64,000 bases of DNA, from contig NZ_JACHGY010000001.1 in the NCBI RefSeq assembly GCF_014207595.1, positions 2,486,836 through 2,550,835 on the forward strand, given 5' to 3'. The DNA is from Algisphaera agarilytica (GTDB lineage: Bacteria > Planctomycetota > Phycisphaerae > Phycisphaerales > Phycisphaeraceae). Both the position numbers and the translations under genes were made by a program. This document shows, one piece after another, positions 1,277-45,176 of this stretch (position 1 is its first letter; the number at the start of each line of letters is the position of its first letter). The notes beneath the pieces are model-generated. The model saw nothing but the letters and a program-made list of their open reading frames with translations. It did not search any database and was not told the DNA's origin.

Positions 1277-1722
1277 TTTTGCTCGGATGGATCGGATGAT
1301 TTCGGATCAAGGCAAACTTGTTTTGGATACCGATGCGTTGACGCATTCCATCATCGGCTGCGCGTTTCGTGTGGCGAACGAGTTAGGCAGCGGTTTTCTG
1401 GAGAAGGTCTACGAGAACGCGTTGCGCATCGAGTTGGAGGCGGCGGGCCACGAGGTCAAACAGCAAACACCGTTGGTGGTGCGTTACCACGGCGAGACGG
1501 TCGGCGAATATGTGGCGGACTTGTTGGTGGACGGCCAGGTTTTAATCGAACTCAAATCTGTTCAATCCATCAGCCCCGCCCACTATGCTCAATGCAAGAA
1601 TTACCTGGCCGCGACAGAGCTGGATGTATGCCTGTTGCTTAATTTTGGCCCGACCAAACTCGAGCACAAACGCATCCTGCGGAACTCATTATCCGATTAA
1701 ATCCGATTCATCCGAGCTAAAA
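1277..1722 (+). mobile_element. GxxExxY cassette bounded by imperfect terminal inverted repeats
   Basis: The left end (1277-1297) contains GCTCGGATGGATCGGAT. The right end (1701-1722), read on the other strand, contains GCTCGGATGAATCGGAT. The two arms differ at one base plus one indel over about 21 bases. The GxxExxY gene begins inside the left arm and stops right before the right arm, so the arms bound exactly one gene. The insertion splits two ALDH-family genes. A shorter copy with the same ends lies at 9626-9721. Mobility is inferred; no transposase is visible and no target duplication was established. Confidence 0.6.
1287..1700 (+). CDS. GxxExxY family protein
   Basis: The 137-residue protein carries the family signature as GSGFLEKVYENAL near residue 33, then the hydrophobic/acidic core YVADLLVDGQVLIELKSV, which resembles a PDDEXK-type nuclease core (D, then E-x-K), and the C-terminal LLLNFG. 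The family is common in planctomycetes and environmental bacteria. Its role is not established; a nuclease-like fold has been proposed from sequence. The start used (ATG 1287) lies within the left inverted repeat; an alternative is the ATG at 1296. The gene interrupts an ALDH gene group and looks like cargo of a small repeat-bounded element. Confidence 0.85.
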   Translation: MDRMISDQGKLVLDTDALTHSIIGCAFRVANELGSGFLEKVYENALRIELEAAGHEVKQQTPLVVRYHGETVGEYVADLLVDGQVLIELKSVQSISPAHYAQCKNYLAATELDVCLLLNFGPTKLEHKRILRNSLSD

Positions 1723-2639: not shown

Positions 2640-3253
2640 TGGATTTCGCCCAGCATCTTGACATCCACTGCGACCTCGGCCCGTTCCCCACACCCGTAGA
2701 GCACGAATGCGCCGCGGTCTGCGTGGGCGGGCGCTACACCCGTTCGGCGGTGCAGGCCTACGCCAACAGCAAGGCAAAAGTGCACACATTGATCGATTGG
2801 CCCGGTGGTTTGGGCAAGCCGACGGTCCGGCAGATCGGCGCGGTGGCCGCGGCGAAGGACGGCACCCAAGCGGTCGAAGTGATGGCTTGCCCCGAACATG
2901 TGCAGGATGGGAATTTTGCGGCTCTGTGTGATGATGTCATGGGGGTGGTCATCGCGGTGCGTGAAGTCAGCCGTGAGATCGAGGTGCATGTTGCGCTCGA
3001 CACGGCGTGGCTTGGGCCGGAGGCCGAGTCGATCGAATGCCTGTGCTTGGCGGTCCGGGAATCCGGGGGCGATGGTGTGGTATTGGCGTCGCAGGCCCTG
3101 CAGATTGATCCGCAGTACGAGAAACAGGTGGCGAGGTTGGTGCACCACTCGGGTCCGTTGCGGGTGAAAGCGTTGTCGCTGACGATCGAGGCGGGGGTGT
3201 TGCTGGATGCGGGGGTGGATCGGGTGGGCGTGTCGAGCCGTGTGTTGGGGTGA
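2639..3253 (+). CDS. Divergent DeoC (deoxyribose-phosphate aldolase)-like protein
   Basis: The 204-residue protein follows the DeoC pattern: VCVGGRYTRSAV (compare CV-x-P-x-x-V), VHTLIDWPGG (compare V-x-T-V-I-G-F-P-x-G), TQAVEVM (compare EIDMV), GGDGVVLAS, VKALS and GVDRVGVSS. DeoC normally forms a Schiff base through the Lys of F-V-K-T-S; here that region reads VVLAS, so the lysine appears to be lost, while a Lys in VKALS is kept. The protein may therefore be inactive as an aldolase or have changed function. The ATG overlaps the stop of the ALDH-like gene by one base, implying translational coupling. A GTG at 2618 is an alternative start. The family assignment rests on motif spacing only. Confidence 0.55.
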   Translation: MDFAQHLDIHCDLGPFPTPVEHECAAVCVGGRYTRSAVQAYANSKAKVHTLIDWPGGLGKPTVRQIGAVAAAKDGTQAVEVMACPEHVQDGNFAALCDDVMGVVIAVREVSREIEVHVALDTAWLGPEAESIECLCLAVRESGGDGVVLASQALQIDPQYEKQVARLVHHSGPLRVKALSLTIEAGVLLDAGVDRVGVSSRVLG

Positions 3254-3265
3254 AGCGTAGTTCGA

Positions 3266-3422
3266 GGCAGCGCTACGCTTATCGCGGAGCCAAGGAGACG
3301 CAAGGCGCGGAGGCAAGCCTTTGGATTTTGGGGATAAGGCGATGTCTTCTGGATACTTTCTTAAATTGTCTTCCTCCGTGTCTCCGTGCCTCTGCGCTCT
3401 CCGTGGTAAGCGAAGCGCTGCC
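3266..3422. repeat. Imperfect palindromic element, CTCCGTG family, copy 1
   Basis: The gap between the DeoC-like gene and kdsA is filled by a roughly 157-bp imperfect palindrome. The left arm 3266-3289 and the reverse complement of the right arm 3399-3422 match at 21 of 24 positions (arms begin GGCAGCGCT and pass through CGGAG). Inside the right half are tandem CTCCGTG-like heptads. The right end, including AAGCGAAGCGCTGCCTTGCC, recurs at 13135-13154. The longest open frame inside is in the wrong register for any recognisable protein, so it is read as a non-coding repeat. Confidence 0.65.
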
Positions 3423-3466
3423 TTGCCCTCTGCTTTGCAAATCCCGAATTCGATTAACCTGTGCGT

Positions 3467-6290: not shown

Positions 6291-6395
6291 GATTTCGGAT
6301 TGGGGATTTCGGATTGCGGAATCTCCGTCCCGGTCGACCGTTGTGGTATTGGGTCTGTGTGTCTTTCCGAAATCCGAAATCTCCAATCCGAAATC
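6291..6395. repeat. Palindromic element, GATTTCGGATT family
   Basis: The left arm 6291-6321 and the reverse complement of the right arm 6365-6395 agree at 29 of 31 positions. Each arm contains two degenerate GATTTCGGAT units. The unrelated spacer is about 43 bases. The element starts five bases after the stop of the preceding gene and ends four bases before the start codon of the next one, so it fills the whole intergenic gap. It could fold into a long hairpin in the polycistronic mRNA. The sequence differs from the CTCCGTG and GCTCGGAT families in this window. Confidence 0.75.
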
Positions 6396-13026: not shown

Positions 13027-13131
13027 CACGGAGTACGCGGAGGCACGGAGGCACGGAGGAAGGCATCCTTCGGGGTGACCCTTCGTCTATCTGCCTTGGC
13101 TCCGTGCCTCCGTGTCTCCGCGCTCTCCGTG
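13027..13131. repeat. Palindromic element, CTCCGTG family, copy 2
   Basis: The left arm 13027-13058 and the reverse complement of the right arm 13100-13131 match at 29 of 32 positions and consist of degenerate CACGGAG heptads. The sequence after the right arm (13135-13154) repeats that at 3408-3427 in copy 1, including AAGCGAAGCGCTGCCTTGCC. Copy 2 lacks the outer GGCAGCGCT end on its left side, next to the DUF58 stop, so it may be truncated there. It fills the gap between the DUF58 gene and the BatA-like gene. Confidence 0.7.
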
Positions 13132-33037: not shown

Positions 33038-33069
33038 CATCTGCGTTAATCTGCGTCCATCAGCGGTTC
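33038..33069 (+). repeat. TCTGCGT-repeat stretch upstream of murG
   Basis: CATCTGCGTTAATCTGCGTC followed by CATCAGCGGTTC forms a pair of TCTGCGT direct repeats, a type of intergenic repeat widespread in environmental bacteria. It covers the place where the start region of murG should be. The wider nature of this repeat is recalled, not shown here. Confidence 0.3.
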
Positions 33070-45082: not shown

Positions 45083-45096
45083 ACGCGACAGTTATG

Positions 45097-45164
45097 AGTG
45101 ATCAGTGAACAGTGATGAGTTCATAGATCACCCGATTCAAACTCATCACTGTTCACTGAATACT
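45097..45164. repeat. Palindromic element, CAGTGAACAGTGAT family
   Basis: The left arm 45097-45121 and the reverse complement of the right arm 45140-45164 agree at 23 of 25 positions. Both contain CAGTGAACAGTGATGAGTT. It ends 12 bases before the flgG ATG, where no Shine-Dalgarno is then visible, and splits the otherwise tight flgF-flgG pair. It differs from the other repeat families in this window. Confidence 0.75.
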
Positions 45165-45176
45165 GAGAACTAAACT

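Follow-up and report, generated by a model that had tools for sequence, protein, structure and literature searches.

GxxExxY genes framed by inverted rows of short words: a putative class of small mobile DNA element

Introduction

Between two aldehyde dehydrogenase (ALDH) genes of the planctomycete Algisphaera agarilytica lies a short gene of the GxxExxY family, framed by inverted repeats. Do gene and repeats together form a small mobile element and, if so, is the GxxExxY protein its cargo or the enzyme that moves it? We found no role for this widespread family in the open-access literature, and the available portions of PMC8934634 and PMC12085832 state neither a function of GxxExxY nor such an element. 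Here we analyse the locus within a window of 64,000 nt, the whole stretch of DNA under study, together with GxxExxY loci of other genomes.

Results

The GxxExxY gene (1287-1700, + strand) encodes 137 amino acids with a predicted PD-(D/E)XK fold and lies between ALDH1 (2-1270, +), an aldehyde dehydrogenase gene truncated by the window edge whose family was read from the sequence, and ALDH2 (1734-2639, +), a short ALDH-like gene of 301 amino acids that we used as the probe for this junction in relatives. The initial annotation had named the family correctly: the window protein matches TIGR04256 (137.4 bits, 2.6e-40, passing the curated cut-off of 35 bits) and PF13366 (PDDEXK_3; 137.3 bits, 3.8e-40), and a Pfam and NCBIfam scan of it returned nothing besides these two models, with no transposase family. 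The end of ALDH1 (1270) is separated by 6 nt from the left arm (1277-1307, +), a unit row of CTCGGATGG / ATCGGATGA / TTTCGGAT, and the right arm (1691-1721, − strand) is an inverted copy of it built from the same unit. Direct reading of the shorter arms first described, 1277-1297 (TTTTGCTCGGATGGATCGGAT) and the reverse complement of 1701-1722 (TTTTAGCTCGGATGAATCGGAT), bears out a difference of one mismatch and one indel, and a repeat search extends them to 31 nt at 81% complementarity, 383 nt apart. The gene had been placed exactly between the arms; it is indeed framed by them, but its ends overlap both, the left arm containing the ATG (1287) and the extended right arm the stop codon (1698-1700). 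Local alignment of the flanks gives a score of 19, reached by 1 of 3000 dinucleotide shuffles, and the window copy's arms are among the weaker ones, the median over 84 loci being 29.25. All three GxxExxY genes of the host genome (4.17 Mb) are framed by inverted arms, those of the other two measuring 41 nt (88%) and 45 nt (91%).

Next, we examined the protein. The predicted structure (pLDDT 90.2) has a PD-(D/E)XK fold, and its nearest solved structure is SSO0001 (Z 10.0 over 102 residues, 3.7 Å), which we take to be a Cas4 protein; its Foldseek neighbours are lambda-type exonucleases, with restriction enzymes also near. The catalytic residues are almost invariant (Asp in 121 of 122, Glu in 121 of 122, Lys in 122 of 122), as is the GxxExxY motif itself (Glu 120/122, Tyr 121/122). 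The protein is thus a predicted PD-(D/E)XK nuclease whose active site is intact, and such conservation in a patchily distributed gene suggests that the predicted cutting activity matters for its persistence. At one locus (L041, at the ALDH junction of genome G024) the catalytic Asp is missing (VADLL to IPGVI) and the arms are intact; judged from its sequence, this may be either a dead copy or a binding-only protein. A Holliday-junction resolvase was considered and rejected, Hjc (Z 7.3) ranking below SSO0001 and not above restriction enzymes. Additionally, PADLOC anti-phage defence models matched 0 families at E up to 0.1, and the family profile, searched against PDB sequences, retrieved a single meaningless match (E 0.36).

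We then determined how general the layout of gene plus arms is. In the taxonomic family of the host, GxxExxY matches are present in 33 of 51 genomes, a patchy distribution. The 91 matches yielded 88 fetched loci, 87 of them recognised by our script and 84 with complete flanks; the set omits G003 (stops), a contig-end fragment in G026, L096 (unrecognised), and L040, L078 and L097 (short flank). Arms scoring at least 18 occur at 79 of the 84 loci, compared to 9.4% in a control in which flanks were exchanged between loci, and arms scoring at least 22 occur at 72 of the 84 (swapped flanks, 3.3%). Among 370 ORFs in 464 kb of the host genome, five reach a score of 18, of which two are GxxExxY genes, including the window copy; the remaining three (of 368 other ORFs) are a DUF2780 gene beside REP-like palindromes (L215), L223 and L230 (score 18.0). 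These frequencies, together with the shuffles, reject a chance origin of the window arms. The L223 ORF (8076-8783, − strand; 708 nt) is framed by 41-nt inverted arms; it has no Pfam match and, by eye, resembles a Y1-type REP transposase.

Beyond the family, a multi-phylum set (genome_contigs) was built from the best 80 of at least 577 candidates, all of one subfamily (A2, GFLEKVYE type), so that other arm classes are under-represented in it. By record title, these 80 loci come from Planctomycetota, Acidobacteriota, Cyanobacteria, several proteobacterial groups, Chloroflexi, Armatimonadota, a Lewinellaceae bacterium, Methanosarcinales archaea and others. Seven of the 80 were short of flank, and of the 73 scored, 59 reach 18 (swapped flanks, 23%), 49 reach 22 (11%) and 39 reach 25 (5%), the high swapped values arising because one word recurs across phyla. 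With the window protein as sole query, 8 of 72,556 plasmid records match; three of these copies have arms scoring at least 18 (Bacteroides, Sphingomonas, Bernardetia) and the other five score under 18. PHROGs gave one weak match to GxxExxY (E 0.038). It is well supported that the gene is inherited together with its two arms as a single unit.

Upon closer examination of the arms, we observe that each consists of about three consecutive units, 8-11 nt long, with a core word common to both arms of an element, and that the units differ between elements of one genome. The core words are C[AG]GAG, CCAAG, C[AG]AAG, C.GAT, AGGAT and rarer ones, and several arm classes tend to carry TTTAACC upstream of the first unit. 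In most elements the purine-rich strand forms the left arm, immediately ahead of the start codon (e.g. L003, 1417-1461), so that the units of this arm could double as a ribosome-binding sequence, and in a minority of elements the arms have the opposite orientation. In G002 (C12:4340-4458), 14 overlapping CGCCAAG-pair matches in 8-nt steps form 15 consecutive units, which suggests that the number of units can expand as in slippage.

We compared arms and proteins at 122 of 157 flanked loci (score at least 18, arm at most 80 nt, protein at least 90 aa). Protein identity correlates with the similarity of the 3' (right) arm, which can extend into the final codons of the gene and is therefore not wholly non-coding (Mantel r = 0.34, 0 of 300 permutations as high); the correlation is 0.38 in the family set (68 loci, 0/1000) and 0.370 in the multi-phylum set (54 loci, 0/1000), where it barely exceeds the best permutation (0.366). 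When arm classes were assigned by our own regular expressions, which left 8 of the 122 loci unlabelled, the nearest protein neighbour had the matching arm class in 93 of 114 cases (expected 31%). For the 66 labelled loci of the family set, 15 class changes are needed on the protein tree, against a mean of 36.7 after shuffling (0 of 200 as low), and the nearest protein in another genome has the matching class in 50 of the 66; pairs of loci from the same genome share a class no more often (12/60) than pairs from different genomes (485/2085). Arm words track the subfamily of the protein and not the genome, a pattern more in keeping with an enzyme or arm-binding protein than with neutral cargo. 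Furthermore, 54 of 78 comparisons among loci with similar flanks place an arm closer to its own opposite arm than to its counterpart in the other genome (the comparisons overlap, making the p value indicative only, and arms above 65 nt were dropped), which suggests that the two arms undergo concerted change or replacement.

The arms also exist without the gene, a possibility that the initial annotation had proposed to check. In the window, gene-less hairpins lie at 3253-3435, with arms partly of CGGAG-type units, the class of the genome's GxxExxY copy L003; at 13027-13131, with CACGGAG-type unit arms; at 6291-6395, with GATTTCGGATTGGGG-type / GATTTCGGATTGGG arms, possibly of the four-helix-bundle lineage; and at 45090-45171, with CAGTGATGAG-type / CAGTGATGAGTGA-type arms like those of the four-helix-bundle gene L116 of the same genome. 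The words at 6291-6395 and 45090-45171 are closer to S23-type arms (e.g. L116) than to those of GxxExxY genes. A single CNGAT-type unit pair lies at 33049-33065 (− strand; G000:C1:2519884-2519900) and is perhaps a solo arm lacking its partner. A census of hairpins with arms of at least 24 nt at 82% or more, gene-bearing ones included, found 30 in 464 kb of the host genome and 1 in a codon-shuffled control; by our reading, about ten of the 30 have unit arms and no gene, and most others are REP-like palindromes. Two palindrome families were seen in this genome, one at L212, L216, L220, L222 and L227 (GTAGGTCAGGC...) and another at L215, L226 and L227 (CCCCGGGCTCTGCCCGGGG). The first contains GTAG, comparable to the GTAG-tagged REPs in the available part of PMC3733652.

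Across many genomes, the unit patterns have tens to hundreds of matches, and the reversed pattern 0-2 per strand. CCAAG unit pairs have a median of 43 in 11 genomes with a CCAAG-class gene (range 7-88) and of 0 in 22 genomes with only other GxxExxY classes (range 0-35; p-value = 2.8e-5), CNGAT matches have a median of 43 in 13 genomes with a gene of that class and 8 in 20 with only other GxxExxY classes (p-value = 0.003), and the class-specific contrast between hairpin abundance and cognate gene gives a Spearman correlation of 0.69; these genome-level tests ignore shared ancestry, use hand-listed cognate-gene genomes and count in the matches of gene-bearing elements. Gene-less hairpins are dispersed and commonest where the cognate gene exists. 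Exceptions are G038, with 317 CNGAT matches and no GxxExxY match, and G010, G011 and G031, with 135, 64 and 45 CNGAT matches and no gene assigned to the CNGAT class. In 18 cases with convergent unit arrays, whose interiors span 31-159 nt, the gene-less hairpins contain no GxxExxY remnant (a further 43 cases lacked a partner within 900 nt, and since the loci overlap some cases are one hairpin), which argues against internal deletion of the gene as their origin in these cases.

Comparison of the same junctions across relatives revealed that they are found empty, with a hairpin or with a gene. ALDH2 loci were examined in 31 relatives, 19 of which have ALDH1 directly upstream; among these 19, the junction has a short or no spacer in 7, a GxxExxY gene in 2, a gene-less hairpin in 3 (G008, G150 and G121) and other DNA in 7, where, as at the two junctions below, hairpins were recognised by reading the printed spacers (the automatic score is 7 for L359 and 16 for L361) and zero-length spacers are mechanical. 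The locus without the cassette therefore exists, and in G007, congeneric with the hairpin-bearing G008, the spacer is 13 nt. The two GxxExxY genes are in G024, with the word of the window, and in G383, from another family, with CGCCGAG arms. The G024 protein is 48% identical to the window protein and has an almost identical right arm, which speaks for an old resident or a recurrent target and not for a fresh jump.

At the M16-RibB junction, 46 genomes have a RibB match and 27 of 30 fetched loci keep the upstream neighbour; these 27 comprise 4 GxxExxY genes, 7 gene-less unit hairpins of different classes (by our reading), 5 spacers of 31-55 nt and 11 others, and the members of one genus (G047, G048 and G050) carry three different words. 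At the lysS-lolE junction, 39 genomes matched and 26 of 30 fetched loci keep lolE, with 6 GxxExxY genes and, by our reading, 3 gene-less hairpins; GxxExxY is also present here in further genomes, and the proteins are not one clade in a weakly resolved tree. Taken together, the three states and the unlike classes suggest that the same gaps have been filled repeatedly and independently. Hairpins of different word classes are also nested in one another, at L334 (lysS-lolE, G035; three hairpins by our reading), L244 (RibB, G017) and L099 (ALDH, G008), and an element's loop may offer the next one a favoured or safe insertion site. No relative is close enough to define a target-site duplication or exact element ends at the three junctions, and neither movement nor an exact empty site in a near-identical genome was observed. 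The initial annotation had named two outcomes that would speak against mobility, GxxExxY genes of relatives without flanking repeats and a locus occupied identically in all relatives, and neither occurred; its proposal of a small mobile element is supported by the junctions lacking the cassette and by the other copies of the arms, short of movement itself being seen.

With respect to insertion context, both flanking genes were called by mechanical ORF calling at 63 of 87 family loci, and both are co-directed with GxxExxY in 40 of the 63 and both against it in 4, with a further 15 elements following a co-directed gene and facing a convergent neighbour and 4 lying between divergent genes. Among ordinary genes of the host genome, both neighbours are co-directed in 77 of 272. 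The left arm starts within 30 nt of the upstream stop codon at 45 of 54 loci with arms and a co-directed upstream gene. The element lies mostly in short intergenic gaps and mostly along transcription, and this bias could come from selection for expression from host operons or from a transcription-linked mechanism.

Finally, a second protein family shares the layout. Genes for four-helix-bundle proteins (TIGR02436, S23 type) are present in 36 of the 51 family genomes, and arms scoring at least 18 flank 21 of 30 such loci (swapped flanks, 2.6%), with words mostly different from those of GxxExxY. Here too the arm follows the protein (r = 0.40, 0/1000, n = 19). S23 four-helix-bundle proteins are not known to be nucleases, and their sharing of the layout means that a third-party mover common to both families is possible.

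Discussion

The element class described here is very probably real and mobile. Whether GxxExxY is its cargo or its enzyme we can only infer, and we lean towards the mobilising enzyme. Our preferred reading, held with moderate confidence, is that of a small mobile element with a nuclease that recognises the element's arms and spreads gene-less copies as well. Under this model, an element of about 450 nt with its gene would encode a GxxExxY protein that recognises the unit words in the arms around its gene and introduces a nick or cut at them, either in the duplex or in an extruded cruciform. The segment bounded by the arms would then be transferred, by copying or by relocation, to another intergenic gap, with host repair completing the reaction, and gene-less hairpins with cognate words would be non-autonomous passengers spread in trans. 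Several observations weigh against it: co-inheritance of gene and arms alone could yield the protein-arm correlation, S23 genes sit in the same arm architecture so that neither protein alone need be the mover, and some genomes, such as G038, are rich in hairpins and lack the cognate gene. Additionally, gene-less hairpins hold no GxxExxY remnant, L041 has kept its arms despite losing the catalytic Asp, most plasmid copies score under 18, and no target-site duplication or movement was seen.

A different reading, which we consider unlikely but the strongest of the competitors, treats the hairpins as a separate class of mobile repeats that host factors or an unknown transposase would move, with GxxExxY and S23 genes as cargo or homing genes lodged in loops of the matching class. 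It accommodates the two unrelated protein families in one arm architecture, the excess of gene-less over gene-bearing hairpins, the nesting of hairpins within hairpins and the genomes with hairpins and no cognate gene. Arm classes that track the protein subfamily and class-specific hairpin abundance are not expected of neutral cargo; a class-specific homing gene would yield both, and lodging in the manner of a homing endonuclease inside matching hairpins is conceivable.

It is improbable that the arms act chiefly in RNA, pairing in the transcript so that RNase III or another host enzyme excises the stem and insertion into an operon is tolerated, with a separate role for GxxExxY. The excess of sense over antisense insertion (40 to 4) within co-directed gene pairs would suit such an element, as would the 23S rRNA intervening sequence (IVS) of Coxiella, which has the same anatomy: in the available part of PMC4990558, it is about 430 nt long, holds an S23 ORF within an inverted-repeat stem that includes tandem heptamers, is cut out by RNase III and is of unresolved origin. 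A stem selected in RNA should favour G.U pairs, whereas the sense-strand arm mismatches at 125 loci are symmetric (161 G.U versus 177 A.C, besides 406 transversions, in a comparison run without a positive control), so that the arms behave as DNA repeats and an RNA stem as the primary constraint is unsupported by this comparison. Furthermore, a stem needs no rows of identical words in both arms, and Rfam has no match within the window at gathering thresholds. Least probable of all is an ordinary, vertically inherited host gene beside a local stem-loop acting as terminator or regulator, for although the same GxxExxY type occupies the ALDH junction in the distant genomes G000 and G024 and GxxExxY recurs at M16-RibB and lysS-lolE, the same junctions are also empty or gene-less with different arm classes, the lysS-lolE proteins are not one clade, gene-less copies are dispersed in class-specific numbers and the gene is patchily present.

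Returning to the preferred reading of a nuclease-driven element, it is quite possible, if short of probable, that these loci represent a new class of bacterial and archaeal mobile DNA, made of inverted word rows and served by word-specific PD-(D/E)XK nucleases as RAYT-like transposases, with a sister S23 lineage that includes the 23S rRNA IVSs. The elements measure about 450 nt with a gene and about 80-200 nt without. In searches that covered one open-access library, we found no description of them, and none of six arm sequences sought there was found in print. The arm code matched to the protein gives GxxExxY a testable substrate, each subfamily predicting a DNA word and its spacing, and if the proposal is true, the variation among words would amount to a DNA-recognition code diversified in nature. 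It would also account for the tandem-word hairpins dispersed through many genomes, place the 23S rRNA intervening sequences in a broader group, and make a compact nuclease family a further route, besides the few already known, by which miniature inverted repeats spread.

Among known systems, the 23S rRNA IVS shares with the element a single ORF in an inverted-repeat stem, and S23 genes outside rRNA are armed here as well; by this analogy, the Coxiella IVS looks like a member of the S23 lineage that landed in rRNA. GxxExxY differs from it in fold (PD-(D/E)XK, not the S23 four-helix bundle), in its place between two ALDH genes and not in an rRNA gene, and in arms that show no sign of RNA selection. 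With MITEs and REPINs, the gene-less copies have in common that they are short inverted-repeat elements between genes, commonest with a matching resident gene; in contrast, the partner protein has no transposase match, no target duplication was found, the arms consist of repeated words and the hairpins examined are not internally deleted versions of the gene. The closest parallel in layout is the REPtron or TIRtron, in which, according to the available part of PMC3733652, RAYT genes are flanked by REPs or TIRs, further REPs are dispersed, and several repeat types have their repeat-specific REPtrons. Both systems place a small gene within inverted repeats and disperse gene-less repeats of the same type between genes, whereas GxxExxY belongs to a PD-(D/E)XK nuclease family, not to the HUH (Y1 tyrosine) transposases, and its arms are rows of 8-11-nt units. 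Having no HUH transposase, the GxxExxY element would work like the RAYT/REP system without being a member of it.
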